42,693 nt of DNA from the IMG/VR virus record IMGVR_UViG_3300050132_000132, positions 1 to 42,693 of that record. One strand, written 5' to 3'. The notes below the pieces were generated by a model. It saw only the letters and a program-made list of their open reading frames with translations. It did no database searches and was not told the DNA's origin. Of the stretch, positions 360 to 41,472 are shown in pieces. Each line of letters begins with the position of its first letter. Within the stretch, counting starts at the first letter, position 1. The stretch is from a virus. The position numbers and the translations under genes are program-made.

Positions 360-389
360 GATGGTAGTCTCCTATAATGTGGGTAAAGG

Positions 390-905
390 TTAACGCCTAA
401 CATCTATTGATAAAAAAGGAATATTAAAAGCTTTAATCTTTTCGTGTAATTCTTCATACGCTTTATAATCGTTATCAACATTAAGCAATTGTTTTTCAAT
501 TTTTTGTAGTTCAGCTTTGCAATCTGAATATTTTGTATCAGTACCAAAGTAATAGTTATTGCCTAATGTTCCTTTGCTAGCTCTTTCCGTTATGCCGGTT
601 ATTATATCAAAGTCAAAATATTCCGTTTCACTGATATAACCACAATTTATTTGCAAAACTGTTAGATGGTAATGGTTGACGGTTTTATATACAGTTATTT
701 CATACCAGGAATATTTTTCGTTAAAGCTGACAATAAAACCCGGTAAAGCGTCACTCAATTTACTTTGAATATGTTTCCTTTGCCTAATGCTTTTACCGTT
801 CAAACTTTTCATTACAGGCGACAGCTTGTCAATAGCTTCTATCTGCAATGTGCACAGATCAATAGCAGCTGTCAATTCGGTCATATACTCTTGTTTAGTT
901 TTCAT
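390..905 (-). CDS. Hypothetical protein, 171 aa
   Basis: Soluble protein of 171 residues with helical ends (residues about 1-35 and 130-160) around a central aromatic, beta-rich segment (SWYEITVYKTVNHYHLTVLQ). It has no recognised catalytic motif. The translation start has an AAAGGAGAT ribosome site, and the surrounding string up to ATGAAA is almost identical to that of the gene at 1150-1416, which suggests a conserved translation signal or local duplication. Function unknown. Confidence 0.8.
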   Translation of the reverse strand: MKTKQEYMTELTAAIDLCTLQIEAIDKLSPVMKSLNGKSIRQRKHIQSKLSDALPGFIVSFNEKYSWYEITVYKTVNHYHLTVLQINCGYISETEYFDFDIITGITERASKGTLGNNYYFGTDTKYSDCKAELQKIEKQLLNVDNDYKAYEELHEKIKAFNIPFLSIDVRR

Positions 906-934
906 TGGTTTAATCTCCTTTAAAACAAGTTCGA

Positions 935-1078
935 TTAATTTCTTGTTTGCGTTATCGTCCGAAAATAGTTAAGATAAGAAGTATAATCTTTGTTTTCATT
1001 GTATTTAACAGGTTTAAAACCATATCCTTTCTGTTTCCAACAATAAATCAAATAAGCTTTTTCATTTTCAGTTGTCAT
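935..1078 (-). CDS. Small hypothetical protein, 47 aa
   Basis: Begins MTTENEKAYLIYCWKQKGYG and is rich in Tyr, Lys and Asn. An AAGGGGA ribosome site lies about 8 bases before the ATG. It fills the space between two larger leftward genes, which supports a real gene rather than a chance frame. No family recognised. Confidence 0.6.
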   Translation of the reverse strand: MTTENEKAYLIYCWKQKGYGFKPVKYNENKDYTSYLNYFRTITQTRN

Positions 1079-1149
1079 TGATCTATTCCCCTTTTTAACT
1101 TAGCAAGCGATTACAGTTAAGGCAACTAGCGACAGTTAACAGTTAAGGA

Positions 1150-1416
1150 TTAATATTCCGGTCCATATTCAATAGCAAATATAGGTCCAAGTGTTTTCTT
1201 TTCACAGATAACAATATTATATTGATCGTCCTCTATTACAATTTGCCGCATATCATTCGAAGTAGTAAAACCATTTTCTTTAAACCACGTGGCTATCTGT
1301 TTATCAGTTTTGAGCGTTTCAAAAACTACCTTGTCAATTTCACCGACAGTAAACCAATTGTTCCAATAATATCCGTCTTCTTTATTACCCCATGCGTCAA
1401 TAGATAATACTTTCAT
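1150..1416 (-). CDS. Hypothetical protein, 88 aa
   Basis: Begins MKVLSIDAWGNKEDGYYWNN and contains WFTVGEID, a pattern familiar from short uncharacterised phage proteins. Small alpha/beta soluble protein without a signal or membrane segment. The ribosome site is AAAGGAGAT, in the same sequence context as the gene at 390-905. Function unknown. Confidence 0.75.
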   Translation of the reverse strand: MKVLSIDAWGNKEDGYYWNNWFTVGEIDKVVFETLKTDKQIATWFKENGFTTSNDMRQIVIEDDQYNIVICEKKTLGPIFAIEYGPEY

Positions 1417-1514
1417 TGGTTTAATCTCCTTTTAATCATATTTCCTACTATCTGCTATTACGTTAACTCATGCCTACAGTTAACGTAATAACGCATAATA
1501 GCAAATGCAATCAG

Positions 1515-2295: not shown

Positions 2296-2679
2296 TTAAG
2301 CTATTAAAATCGAACCATAAAGTTTATCCGTATTAAACCAATAATGCCCACATTTCTTACCGGACATATTGTAATCAGGTAAGGTATCCCATCTTGCCTT
2401 GGTAGCTGTTTTATCGTGCGTAGTTGTGTAAAGAATGCCGTCAACCTCATAACAAAATTCCATTTCATTTTGTAATTGAAAGTATAAACAATCAGCAAAA
2501 CCTCTAATGTATTCTCTTGTAGCTATTGTGGCTTTTGCTAAATCTCTGTTTAAAATTTGTTCAATATATTCCTTTGTTATTGCTTCACTTGTCATGTGAA
2601 AAATTCTAGCTTTGCTGTAAAGATCACGTAAATGCAATAATGCGCGTTTCTTCCGATTGTATTCTGTATTTGATCCCAT
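2296..2679 (-). CDS. Hypothetical protein, 127 aa
   Basis: Begins MGSNTEYNRKKRALLHLRDL, with a basic helical N-terminal half (residues 1-70) and a C-terminal part rich in Trp, Tyr and His (GKKCGHYWFNTDKLYG). The ribosome site is TAGGAGA. No family recognised. It could bind nucleic acid through the basic N-terminus, but that is only inference. Confidence 0.75.
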   Translation of the reverse strand: MGSNTEYNRKKRALLHLRDLYSKARIFHMTSEAITKEYIEQILNRDLAKATIATREYIRGFADCLYFQLQNEMEFCYEVDGILYTTTHDKTATKARWDTLPDYNMSGKKCGHYWFNTDKLYGSILIA

Positions 2680-4181: not shown

Positions 4182-4226
4182 TAAAATCACCTCTTAAAGT
4201 TATTTAGCATCAAAACCATAACTATT

Positions 4227-4255
4227 TATATACAGGATTGCATTTACAACAGCAA
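4227..4255 (-). promoter_or_regulatory. Leftward sigma70-like promoter
   Basis: On the minus strand, TTGCTG (4255-4250) and TATATA (4232-4227) are separated by exactly 17 bases. This is placed correctly to drive the whole leftward operon starting at 4181. No competing leftward promoter of similar quality was seen nearby. Confidence 0.5.
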
Positions 4256-4909: not shown

Positions 4910-5031
4910 TTGAATATAGTGAATTATCTATATGTGGGGAAGTGAATATACTAAATCTTGAATATAGCAGAAAGTGCATATAGCAGAACAACTATATACT
5001 AGAAACTACATATATAGAAACTTGAATATAA
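4910..5031 (+). repeat. TTGAATATAG iteron-like repeats
   Basis: TTGAATATAG is found at 4910-4919 and 4958-4967, TTGAATATAA at 5022-5031, with relatives GTGAATATAC (4942-4951) and GTGCATATAG (4974-4983). That makes five same-strand copies in about 120 bases, spaced irregularly. Clustering suggests protein binding sites. Confidence 0.5.
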
Positions 5032-5475: not shown

Positions 5476-6549
5476 GCAACTATTTAGTTTCATTGATATA
5501 ATCCCGCCAACCACATTATATTGATTGATTATCACATGCTAACATTGCTTATTACACATGTGTATCAACTAACAATCTAATCCTTTCCAGTACTTACAAC
5601 AAGACTATTCTAGTCCTATTCTCCATCTATTTAGTATTGCTACGTTTAATCAGCCAAACGATATAAGAGTACACATATATAAAGCCGCATGTCTATCTAA
5701 GTATGTGATAATACTGGAGTGCTTTGTATATCGTTGCATCATTACAGGATACAACTATTTAGAGTTGCGAGACTTTCCACTATATCGTCATTTTAAGACA
5801 CATTAACTTACGATAAGAAAGTTAATTACAGGTCAGCAGTACCTAACATCCATACCCACATTGTAACAATTTTACCTACTTAGATAATGAGATCATTCTT
5901 GTCTTGTTGCAACTATTTAGTATTGTTAGCTTCTTTACTAGACAAGTCTAAGTGCTCGGTTTGATTGATCTTATCGCTAACATACTAGAATTGTTGCATT
6001 GCAGCCAACTGAGCAATATTCCGCCATTTAACGTAGTTGTGCCAAGCATGGCACATGTGAGCCATCTGTGACACACTTAGACTATGTAATCATTTCGCAT
6101 ACTTAGCTCACATGATAGCGATAACCTTTCGGTATCATTGCGCTTTGTGTCGTTTTAGTGTGCCAAACGCGCTAAGTACCTGATATTGCGTAGGCGTGTA
6201 ATTGGTAATACCAATTTTATTCAATGATACCGGGGGAGTAGGAAAATGTGTCAGAAGGTCAGACCTCAAGACCGTTCGAGCTCCCTCACACGCGCGAGTC
6301 CACTTTTGAACGCAATCCATCCATATATGCGAATATATGCATGTCTAGTAAGCCTGAATTTCAACTATCTAGTATCACAGGTCTTTTCACAATTAATGCT
6401 TACAAGTAGTTGATTTAACTACAGAACGGTATCTGAATAGGCGGTCTTTAGATACCAAGTAGCTAGTTTATCGAATGTAATTTAGCTAGCCTATCATATA
6501 CCTTTTTTTTCTTGAGATATGCTTTCTGGCATCTAACTAGAATCATTGA
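5476..6549. repeat. Dispersed palindromic repeat family, core ACTATTTAGT
   Basis: The palindrome ACTA-TT-TAGT and close variants recur: GCAACTATTTAGT (5476-5488), CATCTATTTAGTATTG (5624-5639), GACTA-TTC-TAGTC (5602-5614), CAACTATTTAGAGTTG (5752-5767), GCAACTATTTAGTATTG (5909-5925), CAACTATCTAGTATCAC (6362-6378) and CATCTAACTAGAATC (6530-6544). The copies share a left flank GCAA or CATC and lie 40-440 bases apart. Each is a short dyad suited to a dimeric DNA-binding protein. Confidence 0.55.
6131..6231. repeat. 10-bp perfect inverted repeat enclosing a hairpin
   Basis: GGTATCATTG (6131-6140) is matched by its exact reverse complement at 6222-6231. Between them lies AATTGGT-AAT-ACCAATT (6200-6216), a tight 7-bp hairpin. 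The block is GC-richer than its surroundings. It could be a folded RNA, a nicking or resolution site, or an operator. Confidence 0.5.
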
Positions 6550-6725: not shown

Positions 6726-6933
6726 AACAGACATTTAGAAAATTTCCGTATCTCAAGTGTTCTATCTCGTGTCTAAGAAAACTATGCTTACATGCCTAGT
6801 TATAAGCACATACAAGCTCGGAGCAATCATCGAGTATCATCGTATGCTGGCATTTGGTTATTACGATAACAATTCTAAATATTTGGAGAAGAGGTCACTA
6901 ATGTAATAATTGTGGGCATATACGAAATAAATC

Positions 6934-8409: not shown

Positions 8410-8909
8410 AAGTTCCTTTCTCAGTAACTGGTCATAGACCGAGTAAACTCGCAAATGCTTATCCTGAAACTAAAGCTTATAGCGTGTTAGTTGAGTTAGC
8501 TATGTATCAAATTAACAAGCTTAATTGTACCCACATTCTTACAGGAATGGCTATAGGCTGGGATTTGGCTGTTGCTCAGGCTTGTGTTAATGTGGGCATA
8601 TCATTCACTGCTTGCGTTCCATTGCAAGATCAAGAATTGCAATGGCCTGCTGAAACTAAACGATATTATTTTGAATTGTGTTCTAAAGCTGCTGATGTTT
8701 ATTTTGTTTGCGATCCTGGCTATGCTGCTTGTAAGATACAAATGCGAAATCAGTACATGGTTGACAATTCTGAAAAGGTTCTCGCTCTTTGGGATGGTAG
8801 CAGTGGAGGCACTGCAAATTGTGTTGAATATGCTAAAACTAAAAATATAGAAATAATTAATTGTTGGACTGAATATTTGTCTTGCTTTAAATATTACGGT
8901 TTGATATAA
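8406..8909 (+). CDS. YpsA/DUF1273-like SLOG-fold protein, 167 aa
   Basis: Opens VPFSVTGHRPSKL, the glycine-rich nucleotide-binding loop of the YpsA (DUF1273) branch of SLOG proteins. It continues with HILTGMAIGWDLAVAQAC and the late motif MVDNSEKVLALWDGSSGGTA, all typical. SLOG proteins bind nucleotides or nucleotide-derived signals (relatives include TIR-linked and LOG enzymes), and phage copies are common but their job is uncertain. Start coupled by ATGA to the previous gene. Full length for the family (about 170-180 residues). Confidence 0.85.
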   Translation: MKVPFSVTGHRPSKLANAYPETKAYSVLVELAMYQINKLNCTHILTGMAIGWDLAVAQACVNVGISFTACVPLQDQELQWPAETKRYYFELCSKAADVYFVCDPGYAACKIQMRNQYMVDNSEKVLALWDGSSGGTANCVEYAKTKNIEIINCWTEYLSCFKYYGLI

Positions 8910-11799: not shown

Positions 11800-12288
11800 G
11801 TGAATTATTGGATTATTACAGATACCCATTTAGGTCATAATAAACTTGTTGATGAAGGTTATCGGCCTAAAGGATTTGAAGAATTAATTTTTAAACATTT
11901 GTATATGGTTAAACCCACAGATGTGCTTATTTGCTTAGGAGATGTTTGTATAGGCAGCGATGCTTATTGGCATAATCGTATAATGCAACATTGGGTTGGT
12001 AATAAATGTTGGCTTGTTAAAGGCAATCACGATAATAAATCCAATAGTTGGTATTTAAATGCAGGTTGGGATTGTGTGAGTGAATCTTTAACCTTGAACA
12101 TTTATGGTAAAGATATTTTGTTTTCTCATTGTCCTGTAACTAAACATGATAATTTTGATCTAAACATTCATGGTCATTTGCATAATACTTTGCATCATGA
12201 AATTGAAGGTCTTGCAGCTAAGCACAAGTTATTGTTTATTGAACATACTTATGCTCCGGTTAGTTTACGAAAATTTATAGGAGCATAA
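11800..12288 (+). CDS. Metallophosphoesterase, 162 aa
   Basis: Calcineurin-like phosphoesterase motifs in order: DTHLGH (residues 8-13), GDV (about 47), KGNHD (about 70-74), FSHCP (about 108) and NIHGHLH (about 121-127). GTG start after AAAGGAGG. Short single-domain form, typical of phage phosphoesterases. It lies beside rtcB and a nuclease, so a role in processing RNA ends (for example removing phosphates) is possible; substrate not predictable. Confidence 0.9.
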   Translation: MNYWIITDTHLGHNKLVDEGYRPKGFEELIFKHLYMVKPTDVLICLGDVCIGSDAYWHNRIMQHWVGNKCWLVKGNHDNKSNSWYLNAGWDCVSESLTLNIYGKDILFSHCPVTKHDNFDLNIHGHLHNTLHHEIEGLAAKHKLLFIEHTYAPVSLRKFIGA

Positions 12289-12290
12289 GT

Positions 12291-12911
12291 ATGGCTATAA
12301 GTTGGAGTAAAATAGAACCTCGCAAACCTAAGTTGCTAGAACCTAAAATAGCTAAGCCTAGAGGACGGCCTAAAATGACCAAGCCTGTTATTGAAGAACC
12401 TGAAATTGAATATGTTCCGTTTGTGCCGCAACTTAAAGTTAGCACAAAGCCTGAAACAGTAACAAAGGAAGTTAAGCCTAAAGGTATGACTCCTGAACGT
12501 TTAGCAATCGGAGGAACTGAGTCTGCTGAGCAGAAGGCTCTATTTTGTCAATGTGCTCGTAATGTGGGCAAATATCCTGAATTGAAATGGTTCTTTGCTA
12601 TACCAAACGGCGGTACTCGCGGCGATACTCCTGAACTAAGGGCTATTCGCGGTGGTCAACTGGTTGCAGAAGGTGTGCGTTCTGGAGTTGCTGATACTTG
12701 TTTGCCTGTAAAGCGTGCTTGCTATTCTGGTTTGTATATTGAAATGAAAAAAAAGTCAGCTAAACCTAAAAAAGAAACTTCTAAAGGCGGCTTGTCGGAT
12801 GAACAAATTGAGTTTGGTGAATTTGTAAAAAAACAAGACTATGCTTGGTATTGTTGTTATGGTTGGCAAGAGGCATGGGCCTGTGTCGAGTGGTATATCA
12901 ATTTAACTTGA
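12291..12911 (+). CDS. VRR-NUC domain nuclease, 206 aa
   Basis: A Pro/Lys-rich N-terminal tail (residues 1-70) is followed by a VRR-NUC PD-(D/E)XK nuclease core: SAEQKALFCQCA, PNGG, then EGVRSGVADTCLP with the catalytic Asp, YIEMKKK with the Glu and Lys, and a C-terminal LSDEQIEFGEFV helix. Such nucleases are common stand-alone phage enzymes, often Holliday-junction or structure-specific. The long basic N-terminal extension is unusual. Confidence 0.88.
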   Translation: MAISWSKIEPRKPKLLEPKIAKPRGRPKMTKPVIEEPEIEYVPFVPQLKVSTKPETVTKEVKPKGMTPERLAIGGTESAEQKALFCQCARNVGKYPELKWFFAIPNGGTRGDTPELRAIRGGQLVAEGVRSGVADTCLPVKRACYSGLYIEMKKKSAKPKKETSKGGLSDEQIEFGEFVKKQDYAWYCCYGWQEAWACVEWYINLT

Positions 12912-12971: not shown

Positions 12972-13262
12972 ATGGGAGTTTTGCAGACAAAGTGCATGTA
13001 TTGTAGCGTACATGTGAGTGAGAAGCCTGATGAAAGACCGGGCAATGAAGTCAGTTTGAACGGAGGTATTTGTGAAGCATGTTTAACGGAAAAGCATCCT
13101 GACATTGCTCCGAGATTGAAGATTTATCGCACTTGTAAGACTTGTGAAAGTAAAAGTTTGAAGTGCGAATTTGTTGCTTGTGACGAATTGAGTAAGAGAC
13201 TTGATAATGCAGATATTGAAATTAGACAAAACAGGAGGTTGAATGAGATGCCCACATTGTAA
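12972..13262 (+). CDS. Zinc-finger hypothetical protein, 96 aa
   Basis: Cysteine pairs are arranged as CMYC ... CEAC (residues about 8-33) and CKTC ... C (about 52-65), giving one or two zinc sites. The ATG at 12972 follows AAAGGAGG by four bases; an upstream in-frame TTG is not used. Ends overlapping the next gene by 20 bases. Function unknown, probably binds nucleic acid or a polymerase. Confidence 0.7.
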   Translation: MGVLQTKCMYCSVHVSEKPDERPGNEVSLNGGICEACLTEKHPDIAPRLKIYRTCKTCESKSLKCEFVACDELSKRLDNADIEIRQNRRLNEMPTL

Positions 13263-15790: not shown

Positions 15791-16268
15791 TCAAAATGGT
15801 TTGAAGCTGCTAGCTAGTAATTCTTATGAGGGTGATATTCTTAGAATTTACAAAGACGCGGCAGGTAAGCCAACGATTGGTGTTGGACACTTGTTAACAA
15901 GTGCTGAAAATGCAAATGGTAAAATTGACATTGCTGGTAAACAGGTGTTAATAGGCTCAGGTATCACTGAACAACAATCGTTAGACTTACTAGCTCAAGA
16001 TGTTAAACCCGCCGAAGATGCTGTTAATTACCACGTTAAAGTTGCTCTAAATCAGAATCAATTTGACGCTTTGGTTATTTTCACTTTCAATGTTGGCACT
16101 GGTGGTTTTGAAAGCTCCTCTCTGCTTACAGCAATAAATGAAAAAGATATTGCCGATATTCCCGAAGACTTTATGAAGTGGGATAAGATAACTAAAAATG
16201 GTGTTCATGTGGTATGCGATGGACTTGTTACGCGCCGGAAACTGGAGATAAAACTATACGATAGCTAA
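15780..16268 (+). CDS. Endolysin, GH24 lysozyme, 162 aa
   Basis: T4/lambdoid lysozyme fold with the canonical triad spacing: Glu17 (YEGD), Asp26 (YKDAAGKPT) and Thr32 (TIGVGH). C-terminal motifs QFDALVIFTFNVG and VCDGLVTRRKLEIKLY agree with the family, which is about 150-170 residues. It cleaves the N-acetylmuramic acid to N-acetylglucosamine bond of the host wall. No signal sequence is visible, so it needs a holin for release. Ribosome site AGGAG nine bases upstream. Confidence 0.95.
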   Translation: MKFSQNGLKLLASNSYEGDILRIYKDAAGKPTIGVGHLLTSAENANGKIDIAGKQVLIGSGITEQQSLDLLAQDVKPAEDAVNYHVKVALNQNQFDALVIFTFNVGTGGFESSSLLTAINEKDIADIPEDFMKWDKITKNGVHVVCDGLVTRRKLEIKLYDS

Positions 16269-16312
16269 TTGTGGGTAATCAATTGTATTATTTAACTATA
16301 TGGAGGTTTGAA

Positions 16313-17712: not shown

Positions 17713-18159
17713 ATGAAAACGATTATGTTGATGTTGTGCGCTTTGATTGTGCTCGTTTGCGGAACCGCTTTTGCCGATACGGTGGCCGTAACGGTGCCTT
17801 CCGCGCCCGTCGCTGCCGCTCCGGTGATCACAGGCTGGGGTCCGGCTGTTGTCGGCTCTGTAGGGGCATTTTACCTTAAAGGCGATTACCGCTTGCTGAG
17901 TGCCGGGGCCAACTTTGGCGCTGCGTACACCTTCGATCAGGGTGCCAATGTATCTAGTGTGGGTATCTATGCAGGTCCGTCGTCTAGTCAGGTTAATGGT
18001 GTGACTACCACTAATATTAACCTGATGGTTTATCTGGATCTGTTTAAAACCTCTGCTGGTAACTTTGGTGTCGGTCTTGGTACTAACATGTGGCAGTCGG
18101 GAGAAGGTGTAAAACCTTCTGTTGATAAAACGTTTCTTGCTCTAGGCTATCACTTTTAA
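17713..18159 (+). CDS. Secreted outer-membrane-barrel-like protein, 148 aa
   Basis: Signal peptide MKTIMLMLCALIVLVCGTAFA (about 21 residues) is cleaved before DTVAV. The mature protein has alternating strands rich in Gly, Tyr and aromatic residues and ends in ALGYHF, a terminal Phe typical of outer-membrane barrels. Codons are GC-richer than neighbours (GCC, CCG, GGC), like the capsid gene. Ribosome site AAAGGAGA. A phage gene for an exported barrel protein may alter the cell surface, for example to block superinfection, but no homologue is recognised. Confidence 0.7.
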   Translation: MKTIMLMLCALIVLVCGTAFADTVAVTVPSAPVAAAPVITGWGPAVVGSVGAFYLKGDYRLLSAGANFGAAYTFDQGANVSSVGIYAGPSSSQVNGVTTTNINLMVYLDLFKTSAGNFGVGLGTNMWQSGEGVKPSVDKTFLALGYHF

Positions 18160-18652: not shown

Positions 18653-19111
18653 GTGACCGGACCTAGACCTAAACCCACACACTTAGCCGTTGTTGATAAA
18701 GGACATGCTAGTAGACATAGAGGTCAGGCTATGCCTAGTTCAGTATTACCAGTTGCACCTGAACGTTTGTCACCAGAAGCTAAATTTTATTTTGATGAAT
18801 TGGTTAAAACAATTCAAGAATTATATCCTTGTTCAGCTTCCCATACTGAGATGATTACTTTGTTTGCTGAAGCTAAAGAACGTGCTTTGTTTCTTGAATG
18901 TTTGCTTAAAACTGAAGGATTAACTCAAGAGATAGTTACAGCAAGAAGTTCAAGTATTAAAGCTAGACCTGAAGTTGCTATGTATGATAAAGCAAGAGCT
19001 GAGATGAAGGGTATCCTAATCGAGTTTGGTTTGAGTCCTTCAGCTAGTCGTAACGTTAAAATAGCTCCTGCTAAAACTAAAGCAAATTCGTTTGCTGACT
19101 TAGATGATTAA
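18653..19111 (+). CDS. terS: Terminase small subunit, P27 family, 152 aa
   Basis: Begins MTGPRPKPTHLAVVDKGHAS, the P27-type N-terminus (G-P-K-PTHL), then a helical central part (LSPEAKFYFDELVKTIQELY) and a C-terminal oligomerisation region. It recognises phage DNA at packaging start. GTG start, AAAGGAGA upstream. The family is usually 140-170 residues. Confidence 0.88.
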   Translation: MTGPRPKPTHLAVVDKGHASRHRGQAMPSSVLPVAPERLSPEAKFYFDELVKTIQELYPCSASHTEMITLFAEAKERALFLECLLKTEGLTQEIVTARSSSIKARPEVAMYDKARAEMKGILIEFGLSPSASRNVKIAPAKTKANSFADLDD

Positions 19112-22513: not shown

Positions 22514-24361
22514 ATGAAAAGTTATGCTGAAATAGCTCTTGAATATTGTCATGCTGTTATTAACGACACACTAGGTAATCGCAAGGCTTGTAAACTAGAG
22601 AAATTGGCTTGTCAGAGGCATCTGAATGACTTAGTTCGTCAGGATGATGAAGATTGGCCGTATTATTGTGACGAAACTGCTGGGAATAGACATGTTAAAT
22701 TTTTGTCTAAGTTGCGTCATTCTAAAGGAAAATGGCGAGGTCAATTGTTCGTGCCAGAGCCTCATCAAATTTTTCAACATTTTAGCTTGTTTGCTTGGAA
22801 ACGTAAAGAAGATGGATTTAGAAGATTTAATAAGGCTTTTCTAAAAATTCCTCGAAAAAATGGAAAATCTTTTAGTTCCGCAGGGATAGGGCTGTATATG
22901 GCCTTTGCTGACGGAGAGCAAGGTGCTGAATGCTACTGTGCAGCAACGACAGAAGCACAAGCAGGCATGGTATTTGCGCCTGCCTGGAACATGGTTCATA
23001 TGGACGAAGAACTCAAGGAGGCATTCGGGTTGACCCTAGCGGGAACGGTGCGTAACCCTACAAGTATATATCGTGCCGAAGATATGAGTCGTATGGAACC
23101 TATTATAGGTGTTCCAAAAGATGGAAGTTCTCCAAATTTCGGCTGCTGTGATGAATTTCATGAGCACAAAACATCGGCATTGTACGATAGTTTAGATACA
23201 GGTATGGGCGCTAGAGATCAGCCGTTGCTTTTAGTGATAACAACTGCTGGTGTAGATTTATCGTCTCCTTGCTATGAACTTGAATTAAAAGCGATTAAAG
23301 TTTTAGAAGGTACTGAAGAAAATGAAAATTTATTTGTGATGATTTTCGGAATTGATCCTGAAGATTCATTTGAAGATTTTGAAGTATGGAAAAAAGCTAA
23401 TCCTAATTTAGGTGTTAGTATTAATGTGAGTTATTTGGAGGGCAAATATAAAGACGCAATGTCTAATTTGCAACAGAGAGCTATATTGCTTACAAAACAC
23501 TGCAACGTTTGGGCTAACAGCGGCTCTATGTGGTGTGATATGCTAAAGTTTAAAGCTAATGCTAAACCTGAATTAAAGCTTGAAGATTTCAAAGGTAAAA
23601 GATGTTTTATTTCAATTGACTTAGCTTCAAAAATAGATATATGTGCGATGGTAATAATGTTTGAATTGGATGAGGTTCAATATAAAATATGTCCTAGATG
23701 TGGGGATAAAGTTTTATTTGAAAATGAAAAATATATTTGTATTAAAAATAAAAATGAAGAAGGTTGTAGTTGGGAACGAAAAAGTACTAAGCAAACTATG
23801 GTGTTTAGCAAGTTTTATCTACCCGAAGAGACAGTCCTAAAAAAGGAAAATCAACATTATAGGCTTTGGGCTGCTGAAGGATTACTTACTTGTTCAGAAG
23901 GTTCAAGAACTGATTTACAAAAAGTTGAAGACGATTTGAAAGAGTTGGCTGCTAATTTTTTAATACAGGAATTAATTTTTGACCCTGCTGGAGCATCCTA
24001 TTTTATTCAAAATATTGAAAAATGGGCTTCTTTTGAAGTTGTAGAATTTACGCAGAGTGCCGCGATGGTTTCAGAACCCATGAAAGAAGCTGAAGCTATG
24101 ATAGTCGATGGTTGTTTTCATCATGATGGAAATAAAGTGTTAACGTGGATGTTTGGAAATGTTGTTAGAAAACAATCAAAAACTGGTGGTAATATTAAAA
24201 ATTATTATCCTACTAAACAATCTAATGAGCTTAAAATAGATGGTCCGGTTGCTTGCTTAATGGCGTTAGCTAGATTGATTACTTACGATAGTGACGCTGG
24301 AACTGATCCTTATAACTCAAGAACTAAAAAAGGTCAAACTGACATACTGCGAGTACTATAA
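22514..24361 (+). CDS. terL: Terminase large subunit with zinc insert, 615 aa
   Basis: HK97-type (Terminase_1) ATPase-nuclease. Walker A is KIPRKNGKS (about residues 111-119), Walker B FGCCDEFHEH (about 213-222), coupling motif VITTAG (about 242-247). The nuclease domain starts SIDLASKIDI (about 369-378) and ends near FDPAGASYF and later TKQSNELKIDGPVA. Between the first nuclease strands lies an inserted CPRC ... C ... C zinc-ribbon-like piece (about 395-425). It packages DNA into the prohead through the portal. Complete in length. Confidence 0.96.
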   Translation: MKSYAEIALEYCHAVINDTLGNRKACKLEKLACQRHLNDLVRQDDEDWPYYCDETAGNRHVKFLSKLRHSKGKWRGQLFVPEPHQIFQHFSLFAWKRKEDGFRRFNKAFLKIPRKNGKSFSSAGIGLYMAFADGEQGAECYCAATTEAQAGMVFAPAWNMVHMDEELKEAFGLTLAGTVRNPTSIYRAEDMSRMEPIIGVPKDGSSPNFGCCDEFHEHKTSALYDSLDTGMGARDQPLLLVITTAGVDLSSPCYELELKAIKVLEGTEENENLFVMIFGIDPEDSFEDFEVWKKANPNLGVSINVSYLEGKYKDAMSNLQQRAILLTKHCNVWANSGSMWCDMLKFKANAKPELKLEDFKGKRCFISIDLASKIDICAMVIMFELDEVQYKICPRCGDKVLFENEKYICIKNKNEEGCSWERKSTKQTMVFSKFYLPEETVLKKENQHYRLWAAEGLLTCSEGSRTDLQKVEDDLKELAANFLIQELIFDPAGASYFIQNIEKWASFEVVEFTQSAAMVSEPMKEAEAMIVDGCFHHDGNKVLTWMFGNVVRKQSKTGGNIKNYYPTKQSNELKIDGPVACLMALARLITYDSDAGTDPYNSRTKKGQTDILRVL

Positions 24362-25586: not shown

Positions 25587-26899
25587 TGGGGCGTTTTACG
25601 CCGCTCATTGAGCGTAGAACATCCGTTCAGCCGTCTATCCTTGCGGGTGATCCTGCTTTGGCTAGCTACTTCGGCGGTGGTAACAACTCAAGGTCCAATC
25701 AGAACGTAAATGCCGATTCATGTCTTGCAGTATCTACTGTTTATGCTTGTGTGAACAGAATAGGCAAATGCTTAGCGATGATACCTTTAGAGTCAATGCG
25801 AAGACTTCCTAAAGATGGTCATGAAATAGCTACTGATTTCAGATTGTATCGACAATTAAATTCAAAGCCTAATCGTTGGCAGACAAGCTATGAATGGCGT
25901 TTGATGGGAATGTTGCATGTTCAACTTCGTGGAAACTTCTACTGTGCAAAAATAGGTGTTCCAGGCAGAGGTTTAAACGAGCTTGTTCCGCTTGATCCTG
26001 ATAGAGTTTATCCATTTGTAATAACTCCGTCTGGTGTTCTTTATTATATGTATGACAATTCACCTGTGCCTCCGCAAGGTTCAATTTTATACTACCAGTA
26101 TTACCCGATTAACGGTGATCCTATAGTATTTAATGCGGGTGAAGTTCTGCATATCAGAGGTGTTACCAGCAATGGTATTGTGGGCAAGAATGTAGTCAAA
26201 TTGTTTCGTGAGAGCGTTGGTCTGTCTTTGGCAACTGAAGAACAAGGCGCGAGACTGTTTAGTAACGGTGCTCAAATTTCTAAACTGTTTACACATCCTG
26301 GAAAAATTGACGACGAAGCTTTCGATAGACTGCGTGAACAGATAAGTGAATATTCTGGTGTTCATAATTCGCATAGAACTATGATACTAGAAGGTGGAAT
26401 GGATATAAAGCAACTTAACATGACAATGGAAGATAGCCAATTCTTGGAAACGCGTAAATTTCAAGTTGAAGACTTATGTAGCTTTCTTGATGTGCCTATG
26501 ATGCTAATTCATAGAAGTGGCGATAAGAACCAAACGTTTGCCAGTGCTGAAATTATTAATCAGATGTTCATTACCCACAATATGCAGCCTCATTTTGTGA
26601 ATTGGGAGCAAAGGCTGAATGAAGATTTACTTTATGATTCTGAAAGAAGTAAATACTATTTCAACTTTAACATTGATGAAATCATGCGTGGTGATTCAGT
26701 AGCTAGAGCTGCTTATTACAACTCAAGGTTTCAGACAGCTTCGCTTACTCCGAATGATATTAAACGTAAGGAAGGTGAAACGCCTTACGATAATAATGAA
26801 TCCGATGCTACTTATCTTCAGTCAGGAATGTTGCCTGCTAAGTTAGCTGGACAACAAGCGCAACCTGTTAAACCTATTACTAAAGTGGAAGGTGACTAG
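25586..26899 (+). CDS. Portal protein, HK97 gp3 family, 437 aa
   Basis: Matches HK97-type portals: ADSCLAVSTVYACVNRIGKC (residues about 41-60), LYRQLNSKPNRWQTSYEWRL, FNAGEVLHIRG, GARLFSNGAQISKLFTHPGK, and QVEDLCSFLDVPMMLIHRSG late in the chain. It forms the 12-subunit ring through which the terminase loads DNA and to which connectors bind. Full length for the family (about 400-440). Confidence 0.96.
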   Translation: MGRFTPLIERRTSVQPSILAGDPALASYFGGGNNSRSNQNVNADSCLAVSTVYACVNRIGKCLAMIPLESMRRLPKDGHEIATDFRLYRQLNSKPNRWQTSYEWRLMGMLHVQLRGNFYCAKIGVPGRGLNELVPLDPDRVYPFVITPSGVLYYMYDNSPVPPQGSILYYQYYPINGDPIVFNAGEVLHIRGVTSNGIVGKNVVKLFRESVGLSLATEEQGARLFSNGAQISKLFTHPGKIDDEAFDRLREQISEYSGVHNSHRTMILEGGMDIKQLNMTMEDSQFLETRKFQVEDLCSFLDVPMMLIHRSGDKNQTFASAEIINQMFITHNMQPHFVNWEQRLNEDLLYDSERSKYYFNFNIDEIMRGDSVARAAYYNSRFQTASLTPNDIKRKEGETPYDNNESDATYLQSGMLPAKLAGQQAQPVKPITKVEGD

Positions 26900-28214: not shown

Positions 28215-29435
28215 ATGACTGTTAGCGAACTTAAAGACAAACGGGGTAAAGCAATTTCGGATGGTCGCGCTATTCTCGATTTTGCTGCTGGCGAAAAGCG
28301 TTCTATCAATGCTGAAGAAAAAGTTCAGTACGAAGCTTTTCTTGCTGATGCTGTTCGGATCGGCGAAGATATTGCTATCGAGGAACGTCAGATTAGCCTT
28401 GAGCGCGATCTTGTTGCTGAGAAACTGAAGAATCTGGATAACAAAGAGCATCGCCAGCAGAAACCCGGCGAGGAACAGCGTATGGCCGCTTTCCGCAAGC
28501 TGATTCTGGAAGGGCAAGCTAACCTGACTGGCGAGGAAGTACGCGCCCTGACGGCTGGACAGGACACCCAGGGCGGTTTCTTGGTTACTCCGCAGGAATT
28601 CGTTCAGGAACTGATTGTTGCTGTGAAGAATCAGGTCTTCATGCGCGGTCTTGCTAAGGTCATTCCTCTGAACGGTCCTACCTCTTGTGGTGTTCCTACT
28701 CTGGATAGCGATGTTGGCGATGCTGATTGGACTCCTGAAGTAAAGATTGTGACTGAAGACACCAATCTTGCTTTTGGCAAGCGTGAACTGATGCCTCACC
28801 CGCTGAGCAAGCTGGTGAAGATTTCTAACAAACTACTTCGCTCCGCTGCACTTAATCCTGAGTCGATTGTTATGGATCGTATGGCTTACAAGTTCGGTGT
28901 GTCGATGGAAAAGGGTTATCTTTCCGGCGATGGCGTTCAGAAACCGCTTGGTGTGTTTACTGCGTCTACTGATGGCATTTCTACTGCACGCGACGTTGCA
29001 CAGGCTGCTGGTAACACTACCACCATTACTGCCGACGGCTTGATTGCTGCTAAGTATGCGCTGAAAGCACAGTACCTTCAGAAATCGCAGTGGATTTTCC
29101 ATCGTGATATGCTGAAGCAGGTTGCTTCGCTCAAAACCGGCGATGGTTACTACCTGTTTGAACTGTCCGATAAGGCTGATGTACCTGATACACTGCTTGG
29201 CCGTCCGCTGCTCATGTCTGAGTTTGCTCCTAATACTCTTGCTGCAAGTGCATATGTGGGTATTCTTGGTGACTTCTCTTACTACTGGATTGCCGATAGT
29301 CTTGCACTTCAGTTCATGCGTCTGAACGAACTGTTCAGCTTGAATAATCAAGTTGGTTTTATAGGCAGAATGGAAAGCGATGGTGCGCCCGTATTAGGGG
29401 AGGCTTTCAGCCGTGTGCAATTGTCTGCTAACTAA
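28215..29435 (+). CDS. Major capsid protein, HK97 gp5 family, 406 aa
   Basis: An N-terminal helical delta domain (residues about 1-110, rich in Glu/Lys) precedes the HK97 fold starting QDTQGGFLVTPQEFVQELIV. Later motifs are SKLVKISNKLLRSAALNPES, GDGVQKPLGVF, WIFHRDMLKQVASLK and GDFSYYWIADS. The delta domain is presumably cut off by the upstream protease. Codons favour CTG, CGC and CCG, marking high expression. Ribosome site AAGGAGAA. Confidence 0.97.
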   Translation: MTVSELKDKRGKAISDGRAILDFAAGEKRSINAEEKVQYEAFLADAVRIGEDIAIEERQISLERDLVAEKLKNLDNKEHRQQKPGEEQRMAAFRKLILEGQANLTGEEVRALTAGQDTQGGFLVTPQEFVQELIVAVKNQVFMRGLAKVIPLNGPTSCGVPTLDSDVGDADWTPEVKIVTEDTNLAFGKRELMPHPLSKLVKISNKLLRSAALNPESIVMDRMAYKFGVSMEKGYLSGDGVQKPLGVFTASTDGISTARDVAQAAGNTTTITADGLIAAKYALKAQYLQKSQWIFHRDMLKQVASLKTGDGYYLFELSDKADVPDTLLGRPLLMSEFAPNTLAASAYVGILGDFSYYWIADSLALQFMRLNELFSLNNQVGFIGRMESDGAPVLGEAFSRVQLSAN

Positions 29436-32014: not shown

Positions 32015-32340
32015 GAATAGGCGAGCGCAGACAGAAAGTAACAATTCAAGTTCCTGTGCAGACTAAGGATAAGTTTTCAGCAGTAACTGTAGTCTGGAAT
32101 ACTTTTGCTGTAATGTGGGTAGCTATTGAGACTCTTAAAGGCTTTGATAAGTCAAATGCAGCGGCAAACTATCCCGGTGCCGATGTTAAAATAACAATGA
32201 AGTATTTTCCCGGTGTTTTGCCCACAATGCGAATTGTTTATTTGAATCAGATTTATTCGATACTCGGTCAACCTGAGAACGTCGATATGCGGAATAGAGA
32301 TTTGATTTTCACTTGTCAGACAGGCGTAAAAGCTTCTTAA
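32011..32340 (+). CDS. Head-closure / head-tail joining protein, 109 aa
   Basis: Begins MRIGERRQKVTIQVPVQTKD and continues FAVMWVAIETLKGFD and YPGADVKITMKYF, typical of Phage_H_T_join (SPP1 gp16-like) proteins of about 110 residues. ATGA overlap with the connector gene. It seals the connector after DNA packaging. Confidence 0.88.
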   Translation: MRIGERRQKVTIQVPVQTKDKFSAVTVVWNTFAVMWVAIETLKGFDKSNAAANYPGADVKITMKYFPGVLPTMRIVYLNQIYSILGQPENVDMRNRDLIFTCQTGVKAS

Positions 32341-33309: not shown

Positions 33310-33780
33310 ATGCCACTTGAGCATACCTTAGTAGATTGTCCTCAGAATCCCACATTAGGCCACATTTTAGAGTCCTTGAAACGGCTTGACGCTCATGGTG
33401 AACGTACTGCGTTGGCAATGGAAAAGATGGCTTCCAATTCAGCTACGTTAGACGCTCATTCTGATAAGTTGAAGCAACATGACGCTGCCTTTATTGAATT
33501 GTTTAATTGGCGTAGAGAGTTTGTCGATAAACAGGACAAAGATTACAGAAAGAATTTGGAAAAAATCAGCGAACTTGAAAAAGTCAAAGCAATAAATGAT
33601 GCTGTTGAACAAGTAGTTGAAGATGGCGAAGAAAAGAAGTTTAAGTTTTGGACTGTCGCTGAAGCTAAACTTAAAATAGCTACTCCGTTTGTCATGGTTG
33701 CGTTTTTTGCTATATGGTTAATAGATAGAACTGGATTTGCTTTAGCAGTGCTTAAATTAGTTAAAGAGTTTTCTAAATAA
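33310..33780 (+). CDS. Coiled-coil protein with C-terminal membrane segment, 156 aa
   Basis: Residues 15-105 are coiled coil (LESLKRLDAHGERTALAMEK and later KNLEKISELEKVKAINDAVE); residues about 128-150 form a membrane helix (FVMVAFFAIWLIDRTGFALA). The layout resembles XhlA-type phage membrane proteins but without clear homology. AAAGGAG upstream. Its place in the tail block is odd; it may serve lysis or tail assembly. Confidence 0.7.
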   Translation: MPLEHTLVDCPQNPTLGHILESLKRLDAHGERTALAMEKMASNSATLDAHSDKLKQHDAAFIELFNWRREFVDKQDKDYRKNLEKISELEKVKAINDAVEQVVEDGEEKKFKFWTVAEAKLKIATPFVMVAFFAIWLIDRTGFALAVLKLVKEFSK

Positions 33781-33826: not shown

Positions 33827-34486
33827 ATGTCTATCGCTGCTCAGCTAGCTCAAAACACGACGATTTATATTGCAGGTAGCACCGGAAGTGCCGCTACTCT
33901 AACTGCTGTTACGGTAGGTAATCCTACTATTCTAGCTATTACAGGACACACAGGTGTAATGCCGGGTGATGTTGTTGTTCTTGCTGGTTTTACTGGCGCT
34001 GACGCAGCTTCGCTCAATGGTCTTAGCGTAGTTGTTACGCATTATACTACCGGAGCAACTAACGACACGTTTGCTGTTGACATTAACACGCTAGGTAAAA
34101 CGATTACGATTGGTGCCGGAACTGCAACTCCAGCTGCATGGGTACCTGTTCGACAGGTTAAAACGATAAAACCAGGGGGAGCTAGTGCTACTAAGTTGGA
34201 TGTGACTGATCTAAATAGTACTGGTAAAGAATACCGCTCTGGATTGATTGACAACGGAACTTGTGCTTGCGAAATATTCATTCTTGAAAGCGATCCCGGT
34301 CAGGCTGCTTGCCTCTCTGCTTTCACCACTTCTACTGTTGTTAACATGAAACACGTTACTTCAGCTAAGACTAGAACGTTCAGCGCAACTATTCTGAAGT
34401 TCCCTACTGTACCGGATGGTGCTGTCGATTCGGTACAGACCGGATCATTCGAGTTCCAGATTAACGGTTCTGTAACTGTAGCCTAA
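33827..34486 (+). CDS. Major tail tube protein, 219 aa
   Basis: Residues about 119-150 (KTIKPGGASATKLDVTDLNS and GLIDNGTCACEI) match siphophage tail tube proteins; beta-rich with an N-terminal Thr/Val/Gly extension (1-110) containing an Ig-like region PTILAITGHTGVMPGDVVVL. Codons shift toward high expression. It forms the hexameric rings of the tail tube. Ribosome site CAGGAGAA. Confidence 0.9.
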   Translation: MSIAAQLAQNTTIYIAGSTGSAATLTAVTVGNPTILAITGHTGVMPGDVVVLAGFTGADAASLNGLSVVVTHYTTGATNDTFAVDINTLGKTITIGAGTATPAAWVPVRQVKTIKPGGASATKLDVTDLNSTGKEYRSGLIDNGTCACEIFILESDPGQAACLSAFTTSTVVNMKHVTSAKTRTFSATILKFPTVPDGAVDSVQTGSFEFQINGSVTVA

Positions 34487-34506
34487 TTGTGGGCATATCT
34501 CTAACA

Positions 34507-35141: not shown

Positions 35142-35554
35142 AGAGGCAACCTGAACGTAGATTCTTGTTTAGACTCTGTGTTGAACTAGGTTGCCCACAT
35201 CCAGACGAACTTATCCTAGGAACACCTCCCACAACCGCCAAAATCGGCCTCGGGAGGTGGTTTGGCAAAGATAGGTATCTTAGTGTCACTTTGCCGGGTA
35301 AGCCCGGTATGACCGCTTTACAGCTGAATGAATGGTTTGCATTTTCTTCTTTAGAGCCAGTTGGAAGAGAGTTTCGTGCTGAACTGCGTCACGGTCAATC
35401 ACAAGCAATGGTTGCTAACCTTAACCGTGATACCAAGAATAGACACGAACCTTTTACAGCAGCTGAGTTTATGAACTTTACTGAGAAACCACCTGTTAAG
35501 GTTTATAGCGAAGCTGAACTAGAAGCGTATACTGCGAAGATGTTTGGAGGATAA
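34767..35554 (+). CDS. Frameshifted tail chaperone gpGT, about 262 aa
   Basis: At the canonical heptamer A-AAA-AAC (35132-35138) a -1 shift continues as CTA AAG AGG and fuses 124 gpG residues to 138 more (ending YTAKMFGG at 35554). The downstream part has no good start of its own and holds LEPVGREFRAELRHGQSQAM and AAEFMNFTE, the DUF4035/gpT signature. The G to GT ratio regulates tail assembly in lambda-like phages. A stem CACCTCCC/GGGAGGTG lies about 85 bases downstream of the shift site. Confidence 0.9.
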
Positions 35555-36453: not shown

Positions 36454-39400
36454 TGGCAAATAATGTAGAAATTAATCTTAAAGCTAAAACTACCGATTTT
36501 GAGACAGGTCTTGCTAAAGCAGGAGCTGTTATAGACAACTTTGCTAAAAAAGGTGGCGACTTAAACAAAGCTATAACGGGTTCTTTTAGCGAAATTAACA
36601 AAGCCGCTAAACAGAATTTGGATACAATGCAGCAAGAAATGGCAAAGTTTAATGTCAAATCTGATTTGAAGATAAACTTTGAAATGAAGAATGTGGAACA
36701 AACTAAGACTGCAATAACTGCTGTGTTTAACAAAATAGCAGAAGGTTCAGTCAGCGTAGATGAAGCAACAGCTGCTATTAATAGATTGAACATGTCTCTT
36801 GCAAATGTTGACGCTAATAGGTCAAGAGGTCAGTTTAAAGATTTAGGTATAATGTCAGAAGCTTCGATTGAAGCTATGAAGGCTAAAACTATAAGTGCTT
36901 ATGAAGAAATTAAACGTATAGGTACTTCTACACCTAATGACATAATTCGCGCTGAAGAAGCAATGTATGCAAAACTCGCTGAACTAGATGCTTTGAAGAT
37001 AACTGGTGCTGAAAAAGTTGCTGCTGAAAAGTACGAAATTGCTTTCAAAGAACTTCAAGCCGAAGAAAAGATGTTGGAACAGGCGTTTTTACTTAATCAG
37101 AAGTTTGATTACGATAAGATTAGAAGTGACCTGAAGTCTCAAATGGAAGCACAAGCAGCAGCACAGGCCGGTTATGCCGCTTCTGCTATGCAAGGTGAGC
37201 AGGCTGCTGCTAGATTAGCAGGGCAGGTTCACGCAGGATCTGATTTTACAGCACAGATGAAATTGCAGATGGAAGGTGTTAATGAGGTTGCTGGAAAAGT
37301 TCATGAAGGTATAAGTGGTTGGTCATTGGCTTCCGTTGTTGCAATTGCTAAAATTCAGGTGCTATATTCTATAATCAATACCGTTATGAGTGCTGTATCT
37401 GAATTGCCCACAATGTTAATGACTTCCGTTGAAAGTTACAGATCAGCTATCATTCAAAATGCAGCTACTATAACATCAATGGAAGAAGGTGTTAAAGACG
37501 TAGGACTGGCCTATTTGCAAAATAAAGAATATGCTCACGCTGTTCAGGATGAACTTGTCAAAATGTCGTCTACTACTATAGCTTCAGCTACTCAGTTGCA
37601 GATGCTAAATAATGAGTTTATTAGACAAGGAGTTTACTTAGATACTAATAACGCAAAGGCAGTTCAAGGATTTAAAAACGTAGCAAACGCCGTATCTGTA
37701 ATATCAGCGGGTATGGAAAATAAAAATATTCAATTTTCTGAACAGATCAGGCAGGTGTATGAAGGCGTTGCGAGACCTAATGCACAATTGCTTCGCACTT
37801 TAATGGCTATTGATCCTATGATAAGGGAACATATTCAATTATGGCGCGAAGAAGGCACTACGATTGGACAAATGGGAGGTTTGCTAACAGGTTTTGCAGC
37901 AGCAACAGGAGATATAGGCTCATTGTGGGAAACTGTAAAAACTACAATGGTTAGTATTCGTGACCAAATTTTGCGCGGTGGTTTTGCTGACGGATTTAAA
38001 GATATAGTAAATGCTTCTAAAGAATTAAATAAATATCTTGAAGAAAATAAAGATAAAATTCAGCAAATGATGAAGGGTGCTTTTAAAGACATGGAGTTTG
38101 CTGTTAAAACAATATGGAATTTTAGAGATGAAATAAAAATGTTAGGTGAAGTTGCTTTATGGTCAGGTATTGTTTTAGGCATAGCTTCTGTTGAAAAAGC
38201 ATTCGTTGCACTAAATAATGTTGTTAAAACAAGTGCTTTGTTGAAATTAATAAGCAATCCGTTTTCTTTGGCTATAGTTGGAGCAGTTTTAGGAGGTGCT
38301 GCTGTAGTTTCCAAAGCTCATGATAATCAAGATTTAAATGCAGAAGCAGCTGATGTTAAAAATTTAATATCTTCTAACAAAAATTTAAGTTTGATTCAAA
38401 AAGCCAATCTGCTACAGTCCACAGCTTCTTTGAATGGAACTAACATGGAGGCTTTTCACGCTGCTTATCCTAACAAAGATAACAAGTGGCTAGCTGATAT
38501 GTTTGCTAATAACGCTGTCAGCATGACAGGTGGTGATGCTGCGGGTGGCGCTACAGCAATGGCTTTAAAATTTAACACAAATAAAATTAAATGGATTCAA
38601 GATACTCAAGGTGCTGGTATACTAGCGCCTAAAGATAAAGCAGGTATTCAAGAACCTGATAAAGAAGATCATACTGCTTATAACAATGCTTATGTTTCTT
38701 ACAGTCATGCATTTGATGAACGTGTTGCTCACGATCATATTTTGGCTAATAATAATTTATTAGAGGCTAATCAGTTAGCTTACGACAAAGGGCTTGTTGA
38801 CTTAAAAGATTATCTTTCTAAAAGAAATGCTTTAATGGAAGCTAATTTAATTACAGAATTAAAAGCTAAAAAGAGTGAACTTGCTGAAATAACTAAAAAT
38901 TTAAATCATCCTGAACGCATTGAAAAGACTGACAAGAATGGAATTGTTAGTGAAGATATGGAAAGAGAAGCTTCAGTTCGTTATGAATTAATGGCTAAGC
39001 AACAAAAAGCTTTAATTGCTGTTACGGAAGCTCAAGATAAGTATAACAAGGCTGTTGCTGCCGAACCCAAGTTTGCTTCTGATGAAGCACGTAAGAATGC
39101 AGACTTTATGTTAAAAGCTCAGTCTATGGTTGACAAGATTGATAAAAGTATTGCTAGTGAAGCAATGAATAAAGTAGCTGAACTTCAAAATAGTGTTGAT
39201 TATAATAAATTATCTCCAGGACAAAGAAATACTTTTGATAATAACTTAGTCGGTAACGTGCAAGGTGCTATTGATAAAGAAGATGCTCAAAAAGCAATAA
39301 CTGCTAGAAACTTAAAGTTAGAAGAGATTCAAAACGATTTAATGATTATAGATATGCAAGAAAAGATGAATGAAATGACTGGGCCGGATGCTTTACAAAA

Positions 39401-40253: not shown

Positions 40254-40259
40254 TAAATC

Positions 40260-40288
40260 TTGACTTATTCTTGAATTTTTAATAGTAT
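40260..40288 (+). promoter_or_regulatory. Promoter before tail-tip genes
   Basis: TTGACT (40260-40265), 17-base spacer and TAGTAT (40283-40288), in the gap directly after the tape measure gene. Confidence 0.45.
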
Positions 40289-40310
40289 CTTCGTAATTTT
40301 GGAGTCTTTA

Positions 40311-40919
40311 ATGACTGTTTATAACTTTCCCACATTATCAAAACGTTCACTAGACTCTTTCGAGTTCAATTTACAATCCAATACACAAACTTTTGTTTCA
40401 CCTTTAAACGGACAAACTCAAACATTGGAACTTCCCGGTGCAAAGTGGATTTGCACTATGTCAATGCAAAATGTAAATGAGTTTGACGGTCGTATTATAA
40501 AAGCATTTTTAAGTTCATTACGCGGTGCTTCTGGACGGCTTAACTTAGGTGACTTATCACATCCTACTCCTAGTGGAACGGCTTTAGGCACAGGTACTGT
40601 CAACGGTACTAATCAAACAGGAAATACTCTAATTACACACGGATGGACAGGTGCTCAAAGTAAGCTGTTTTTACCCGGTGATTATTTTTCAGTAAACAAT
40701 GAACTTAAAATGATAACTGTTTTATCCACTTCTGATTCTTATGGAAATTCAACACTTACTTTTGAACCGCCTCTTAGAACTTCTCCTACAGACGGAGGTA
40801 GCATTGGTGTAAGTAACCCTACCTGTGTAATGATGCTTATTGATGATAAACAAGTTAATCTTCCAATGAAAGCAGGTCGTATCTTTGCTCCAGTGATTAG
40901 TTTTACTGAGGTATTTTAA
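40311..40919 (+). CDS. Distal tail protein, 202 aa
   Basis: Begins MTVYNFPTLSKRSLDSFEFN, then TLELPGAKWICTMSMQNVNE and FLSSLRGASGRLNLGDLSHP, which is the pattern of tail-tip proteins lying between tape measure and DUF2163 genes. TTGGAGTC precedes the ATG; the in-frame start at 40299 lies before it and is not used. Beta-rich. Confidence 0.8.
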   Translation: MTVYNFPTLSKRSLDSFEFNLQSNTQTFVSPLNGQTQTLELPGAKWICTMSMQNVNEFDGRIIKAFLSSLRGASGRLNLGDLSHPTPSGTALGTGTVNGTNQTGNTLITHGWTGAQSKLFLPGDYFSVNNELKMITVLSTSDSYGNSTLTFEPPLRTSPTDGGSIGVSNPTCVMMLIDDKQVNLPMKAGRIFAPVISFTEVF

Positions 40920-40920
40920 T

Positions 40921-41472
40921 ATGCGTACAGACAGTGCTAACACAACAGCTATTACCAATAACAACATACCTATTTTAATTTTAGTAGAAATGCATTTTAG
41001 TTCAGGAATTGCTTACTATTGTAATGCTGGTTATAGTTTTACTTGGAATGGAAACTTGTATTTAGGTTTAGGTAATCTAGGCAGTATTGATACTATTGAA
41101 GAAGGCTCTGCTATTCAATCGTACGGTGTCGGTTTCAAGCTTACGGGAATTGACCCTGCTAAAATTGAAATAGCAATGAACGAAGATTATCAAAATAAAC
41201 CTGTGTTCGTAAGACTAGCATTGCTTGACGAAAGTTATAATATTGTGGGTACGCCTACTTTGGTGTTCTCAGGTTTAATGGATACGATGCCTATAACTTT
41301 GGGCACAACCGCTACTATAACGGTTACTGCTGAAAGTAGGTTGGCTGATTGGGATAGAGTTAGAATTAGAAATTATACTGACGCTGACCAGCAATCATTT
41401 TTCCCTGGTGATTTGGGTTTTAAATATGTGAATCAAGCTGCTGACCGCGAAATTTACTGGGGTTTAGCCTAA
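40921..41472 (+). CDS. DUF2163-like tail tip protein, 183 aa
   Basis: ILILVEMHFSSGIAYYCNAG, then FTWNGNLYLGLGNLGSIDTI and a late DWDRVRIRNYTDADQQSFFP match tail proteins related to DUF2163 (tail hub of the gene-transfer-agent/lambda-like type). It starts 1 base after the previous stop. Likely part of the baseplate hub. Confidence 0.85.
   Translation: MRTDSANTTAITNNNIPILILVEMHFSSGIAYYCNAGYSFTWNGNLYLGLGNLGSIDTIEEGSAIQSYGVGFKLTGIDPAKIEIAMNEDYQNKPVFVRLALLDESYNIVGTPTLVFSGLMDTMPITLGTTATITVTAESRLADWDRVRIRNYTDADQQSFFPGDLGFKYVNQAADREIYWGLA

Follow-up and report, generated by a model that had tools for sequence, protein, structure and literature searches.

Primers for the lagging strand of phage T7 are made by the gp4 primase at template-specific sites based on GTC. 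Among the archaeo-eukaryotic primases (AEPs), the NrS-1 phage polymerase recognises TTTGGTTA, with GTGG and GTGA serving as more efficient sites than TTTGGTTA and with the base immediately 5' of the site as the predominant primer start (PMC8718748). The pRN1 primase requires GTG and begins its primer with a dinucleotide paired to the two template bases just 5' of GTG (PMC8076596), and ssiA and ssiB of RSF1010 are specific, individually used priming sites of the RepB' AEP primase (PMC4538821). Here we analyse a ten-base word, AWTGTGGGYA (core TGTGGG), in a 42,693-nucleotide stretch of viral DNA (IMG/VR record IMGVR_UViG_3300050132_000132, positions 1 to 42,693; the whole stretch is referred to as the window), and conclude from sequence comparison that it is very probably the template recognition (priming) site of the phage's own NrS-1-type AEP primase.

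Each of the described systems shares some features with the word and differs in others. T7 gp4 is likewise a phage primase with template-specific sites, but it is of DnaG type, from an unrelated protein family, and its trinucleotide site is frequent by chance. ORF904 of pRN1 combines an AEP with a helix-bundle domain (HBD), reads GTG in the template and starts the primer just 5' of it, as would be the case here, but a site of 3 nt needs no enrichment, whereas the present site of 6-8 nt is enriched 15- to 36-fold (pooled). RSF1010 carries two sites in one plasmid, compared with roughly 10-30 per strand over a phage genome. The NrS-1 primase is homologous, the GTGG core is its best site in vitro, and TTTGGTTA is identical at 7 of 8 positions to the Seuratvirus form TGTGGTTA; an earlier sequence-only reading of the window had named no known word that matches, and this needs correction. 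Unlike the present word, the known NrS-1 sites do not form an even, genome-wide set, and the present word is longer, apparently maintained by selection and present all along both strands. A search of the open-licence literature turned up no previous description of the word, nor of genome-wide, evenly spaced phage primase sites.

Copies, core and expectation of the word in the window

The 16 exact copies of AWTGTGGGYA given by the sequence-only reading were all recovered with their coordinates and strands (nine plus, seven minus; Table 1), as were its seven near-copies, and its estimate of less than one copy by chance agrees with the expectation of 0.17-0.63 under Markov models of orders 1-4 (3.4 at order 5). 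As a control, the word was reversed, and this form occurs once. The enrichment of the proposed ten-base word was thus reproduced, but the real core is shorter: no 6-mer in the window is more over-represented than TGTGGG (29 sites against 5-6 expected), which is strictly kept, while a following YA is preferred (TGTGGGYA makes up 20 of the 29 sites) and a preceding AW is common but weaker. Six of the TGTGGG sites had not been listed before (4931, 11912, 18672, 23697, 35226 and 37922).

Copies lie in and between genes on both strands, as had been claimed, with 12 of the 16 in genes and 11 wholly inside coding sequence; six run along the gene and six against it, in mixed frames. Across 300 synonymous-codon shuffles a mean of 0.6 and a maximum of 4 in-gene copies were obtained against the 12 observed, so coding constraint is not the explanation. 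The position of sites inside genes and on both strands also upholds the view that they are not promoters or operators. Stoperators (L5-type repressor sites), which are intergenic and oriented with transcription, were rejected given the 11 sites wholly in coding sequence and the equal numbers along and against the gene. T5-type nick sites, which are confined to a single strand, were rejected given the strand counts in the window and in the related genome described below (16 and 13). The copies had been called spread out, which is correct but too weak a statement, as the intervals between neighbouring TGTGGG sites, 29 in all, are regular within both strands (plus, p=0.0009; minus, p=0.012). The exact 10-mers, at 16, are too few to reveal such regularity by themselves (p of about 0.15 per strand).

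A related genome with the replication half

The window is a linear record with a siphovirus-like gene set, comprising terminase, portal, head protease, major head protein, tape measure, distal tail protein and endolysin genes, together with HNH and homing endonucleases, an RtcB ligase, a dCMP deaminase and one tRNA-Pro. Its genes match positions 89-92 kb and 1-36 kb of G001, a 94.9-kb syntenic relative whose proteins are roughly 30-70% identical, and this comparison shows the window to be, as judged from gene order and similarity, a fragment of about half of a G001-like genome from which the replication half is missing. G001 contains 29 exact copies of the motif (16 plus, 13 minus) and none of the reversed word; TGTGGGCA is its top 8-mer (33 against 1.1 expected), and its in-gene copies number 20 against 0.8 after synonymous-codon shuffling. 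Two further relatives from the same group, G002 and G003, carry four and three copies. Nine window sites could be aligned to G001, of which three retain the exact word and one retains TGTGGGYA, the remainder being lost; the background for an unchanged 10-mer between the two is 1.7%. The word is therefore maintained while most individual sites turn over. A further contig (G020; L186, L187) of 35.5 kb carries 16 motif copies and a primase 77-78% identical; it matches G001 mainly at 48-85 kb and has only one homing endonuclease in common with the window. It covers the half of G001 that is absent from the window and may be the other half of a close relative phage.

The replication half of G001 encodes a DNA polymerase, a processivity factor, an SF2 helicase, a Cas4 exonuclease, Sak4, a ligase, MazG, a DUF669-type single-stranded DNA-binding protein and a primase of 863 residues. 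The primase matches the PHROG DNA primase family phrog_3022 (E=1.8e-207) and, using phmmer, the solved AEP PrimPol structures 7OLA (8.4e-28) and NrS-1 6A9W (1.5e-11); by sequence it is an AEP of the NrS-1 polymerase type. The catalytic motifs A (DxD), B (SxSG..xH) and C are all present, D94/D96, S133/S135/H140 and E157 aligning with D78/D80, S108/S110/H115 and E139 of NrS-1. Residue Y287 aligns with the HBD tyrosine Y261 of NrS-1, whose replacement (Y261A) cripples priming by the NrS-1 polymerase (PMC8718748). An HBD fold is suggested by sequence alignment: PF22763, the helix-bundle domain, was matched at residues 244-274 (E=5e-5; 23.4 bits, under the curated cut-off of 27.9), and the match to 7OLA extends to residue 270. 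A gene for an N6/N4 DNA methyltransferase adjoins that of the primase (L174:15758-16606, plus strand).

The word in cultured phages with a homologous primase

About 400 phage records contain a relative of the G001 primase, and a diverse subset with hosts from eleven genera was examined. In nearly all of these the top over-represented word was TGTGG[G/T/C][C/T]A or another word with a TGTGG core. A G-type word (TGTGGG/TGTGGGCA) was at or near the top in KL1, Halfdan, Kakheti25, PSV3, Kmi2C, AB_SZL7, R3, RcThunderbird and shaaii, with 18, 20, 19, 18, 12, 24, 26, 17 and 12 copies of TGTGGGCA, respectively (0.2-1.1 expected); DLP_1, which is close to Kakheti25, contains 19 (0.26 expected). The T-type word, TGTGGTCA/TTA or TGTGGTTA, was found in NP1, SLUR25, JenP1, HD01 and Siara, with up to 36 copies against 2.1 expected, while the words of Vib1.207 were TGTGGTCA and TGTGGCCA (the CCA form) and that of RHEph04 was CTGTGG[A/T]. 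The 12 pooled G-type genomes together contain 221 copies of TGTGGGCA where 6.2 are expected, and the pooled T-type count is 140 against 9.6. Any single-base change at positions 1-6 of TGTGGGCA abolishes the excess in the pooled G-type genomes, and 152 control viral loci that lack the primase showed no enrichment (55 against 48.9 expected). With the Markov models of orders 1-4 and the codon shuffles, the one-base variants and control loci refute a compositional or coding artefact, to which we assign a negligible probability. The Markov, related-phage and coding-constraint checks proposed by the sequence-only reading all left the motif standing. A DnaA box (TGTGGATAA) was rejected, as the variant with G to A at position 6 occurs 2 times against 3.5 expected in G-type genomes and 13 times against 7.4, a small enrichment, in T-type genomes.

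In a tree of the primases, phages with the G-type word form one clade (84/84) and those with the T-type word a neighbouring group. Both word types occur among phages of E. coli, P. aeruginosa and Acinetobacter, where they are split by primase, and the same word is common to phages of unrelated bacteria; word type follows primase lineage, not host. A scattered word on both strands could also have been acquired from the host, for example as a DNA uptake, nucleoid or segregation signal, but such an origin is extremely improbable given the distribution of word types across hosts and the lack of enrichment in a 50-kb slice of the E. coli chromosome, the only host slice examined.

The remaining proteins of the module were considered in the same phages. 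No KL1-like polymerase was detected in R3 and Vib1.207 by tblastn, and no Cas4 homologue was found in shaaii with five queries, though its genome contains TGTGGGC 26 times against 3 expected. Cas4 and the KL1-like polymerase are therefore not required, because shaaii, R3 and Vib1.207 have the word with no such homologue found by these searches, and the Cas4 nuclease was rejected on the evidence of shaaii. The DLP_1 record carries an exonuclease gene and so does not provide a second Cas4-free case.

Spacing of the sites on each strand

The spacing of sites on each strand was more even than random in 19 of 19 genomes, with a coefficient of variation (mean of the two strands) of 0.33-0.58, compared with 0.85-0.96 for random points, and a mean per-strand spacing of 1.7-5.6 kb. 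When control words of similar frequency were used (4-603 per genome), at most one was as even. Single strands fell short of p=0.05 in a few genomes (the minus strands of PSV3, RcThunderbird and shaaii). When words were ranked on evenness alone, the top place went to GTGGG/TGTGGG in Kakheti25 and to TGTGGA in S0112. Neighbouring sites tend to lie on opposite strands, at 443 of 608 neighbours against 301 expected, but the alternation was unchanged in 18 of 19 genomes when the sites of one strand were rotated against those of the other, indicating that each strand is spaced independently. Pairing of plus and minus sites was therefore rejected (rotation of the minus set was not significant in 18 of 19 genomes), the alternation being a by-product of the evenness within each strand.

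These results bear on two further explanations. Chi is a host-genome property tied to RecBCD/AddAB, and over-represented, asymmetric, G-rich, octamer-like words such as the present one could be Chi-like sites that regulate, or protect from, host RecBCD/AddAB or a phage Cas4/RecB-like exonuclease acting with the SF2 helicase, both of which are encoded in the module. However, the present word tracks the phage primase independently of the host: phages of one host differ in their word, phages of unrelated hosts have the same one, and the E. coli slice is not enriched. The word is also present in shaaii, where the five queries found no Cas4 homologue, and its per-strand evenness is, to our knowledge, not a property of Chi; we regard a Chi-like role as quite unlikely. 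Recognition by a DNA methyltransferase or restriction enzyme, for which the methyltransferase gene next to the G001 primase might speak, is highly improbable, as no methyltransferase is annotated in the word-bearing KL1, Halfdan and Kakheti25, sites are usually counter-selected by restriction, and this reading would not account for the per-strand evenness.

Proposed priming mechanism and alternatives

The mechanism that we propose is that the HBD of the primase would bind GTGG(G/T) on a single-stranded template and the catalytic domain would synthesise the start of the primer opposite the W-T immediately 5' of GTG. As the T just 5' of GTGG is constant, primers would begin with A, and would then be extended by replication polymerases. 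Selection would ensure that neither strand goes more than a few kb without a site, allowing priming on both at any unwound position, with single sites being gained and lost over time. We infer that the missing part of the window's genome encodes such a primase and that it binds and primes at these sites. Even provision of sites on each strand fits what a primase acting on single-stranded templates would require, and the presence of sites all along both strands suggests that at some point in the life cycle each strand undergoes discontinuous copying, for instance through bidirectional forks or strand displacement. Of the kinds of site that had been suggested for the word, primase recognition sites, which were named first, are supported, whereas the data disagree with T5-type nick sites, host Chi and uptake words of the host.

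Several observations weigh against this explanation. The window itself contains none of the replication-module genes, the primase included, as assessed by tblastn. The excess of TGTGGA in S0112 is only moderate, and 9NA and B025, which carry distant primases, have no clear TGTGG word; in 9NA, CCCGTGG occurs 27 times against 5.8 expected and contains GTGG; its spacing is not clearly even. In the NrS-1 genome GTGGTT is found 31 times against 11 expected, yet is not evenly spaced, and TTTGGTTA occurs once against 1.1 expected. An AlphaFold model of the N-terminus of the G001 primase (two sequences) reached a predicted local distance difference test (pLDDT) score of 37, too poor to confirm an HBD fold. 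The words and patterns for the spacing test were picked for each phage group after enrichment, not spacing, had been seen. Finally, motif phages that have the primase also have the SF2 helicase and Sak4, and co-inheritance by itself therefore does not point to one of the three.

This last point leaves room for the word to serve a different protein of the module, one acting on single strands (the SF2 helicase, the Sak4 annealing protein or the DUF669 single-stranded DNA-binding protein), as the place where it binds or is loaded, and a factor binding single-stranded DNA would likewise need sites on both strands. We consider this unlikely, since the NrS-1 and pRN1 primases demonstrably read GTG(G) and a KL1-like DUF669 protein was not detected in several motif phages. 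We know of no SF2 helicase, Sak4 or DUF669-type protein that reads a word of 6-8 nt; the primase is favoured among the module proteins because it alone has a precedent for reading such a word.

More broadly, the data probably reflect a widespread phage replication system whose primase, reading a word of 6-8 nt, has left its imprint on the entire genome: selection would preserve priming sites every few kb independently on each strand, single sites would turn over, and word and primase would have co-diverged (TGTGGG, TGTGGT, TGTGGA/C). If so, the word by itself would indicate what the primase recognises and where primers lie in whole groups of phages, among them Septimatrevirus, Lokivirus and Queuovirinae. 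Primases are usually described as needing two or three bases, with sites that leave no mark on the genome, whereas here a longer site is apparently maintained genome-wide and evenly on both strands. From the word, likely priming positions could be read off in hundreds of sequenced phages, among them laboratory-tractable ones of E. coli and Pseudomonas. It would also provide a route to predicting primase specificity from sequence, and material on how an HBD reads DNA (G versus T at one position), and the finding is testable in standard laboratory phages.

Site coordinates

Table 1. TGTGGG-containing sites in the window, with context and state at homologous positions of relatives (ORF, open reading frame)
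Class	Sequence	Position	Strand	Context
Exact	AATGTGGGTA	376..385	+	intergenic
Exact	AATGTGGGCA	2345..2354	-	in ORF 2296-2679 (-)
Exact	AATGTGGGTA	5853..5862	-	intergenic
Exact	ATTGTGGGCA	6909..6918	+	intergenic
Exact	AATGTGGGTA	8528..8537	-	in YpsA/SLOG-like gene
Exact	AATGTGGGCA	8589..8598	+	in YpsA/SLOG-like gene
Exact	AATGTGGGCA	12561..12570	+	exact copy, TA form, in G001
Exact	AATGTGGGCA	13249..13258	-	where two ORFs overlap
Exact	ATTGTGGGTA	16268..16277	+	end of endolysin gene
Exact	ATTGTGGGCA	26177..26186	+	portal gene; conserved in G001, G002 and G003
Exact	ATTGTGGGTA	26572..26581	-	portal gene; conserved only in G003
Exact	AATGTGGGTA	32112..32121	+	conserved in G002; one-off form AGTGTGGGCA in G001
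Exact	ATTGTGGGCA	32219..32228	-	conserved in G001 and G002
Exact	ATTGTGGGCA	34486..34495	+	end of ORF 33827-34486
Exact	ATTGTGGGCA	37405..37414	-	tape measure gene
Exact	ATTGTGGGTA	41242..41251	+	
Core only	TATGTGGGGA	4931..4940	+	
Core only	TCTGTGGGTT	11912..11921	-	
Core only	AATGTGGGAA	17572..17581	-	
TGTGGGYA	AGTGTGGGTA	17956..17965	+	
Core only	TGTGTGGGTT	18672..18681	-	
TGTGGGYA	CTTGTGGGCA	21036..21045	-	
Core only	GATGTGGGGA	23697..23706	+	
TGTGGGYA	TATGTGGGTA	29253..29262	+	
Core only	AATGTGGGAT	33347..33356	-	
TGTGGGYA	GATGTGGGCA	35192..35201	-	
Core only	GTTGTGGGAG	35226..35235	-	
Core only	ATTGTGGGAA	37922..37931	+	
Core only	AATGTGGGAA	40327..40336	-	exact AATGTGGGCA in G001

Other features of the window

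At 1515-2036 (minus strand), a 15-bp tandem array at 1666-1958 (GGCCCCGTTCAGATC and variants) encodes a pentapeptide-repeat protein and gives rise to the remaining over-represented long words in the window. The tRNA-Pro (TGG) lies at 14680-14756 and the RtcB-type RNA ligase gene at 10301-11416; G001 retains RtcB and has a tRNA-Thr in place of the tRNA-Pro. Two long intergenic hairpins, with arms of 29-33 nt and loops of 9 nt, were located at 1440-1506 and 31085-31159. The region 4200-6500 is gene-poor, contains three degenerate copies of CAACTATTTAGTATTG (5752, 5910 and 6362) and lies near a switch in the sign of the GC skew; it is a candidate origin or early control region.

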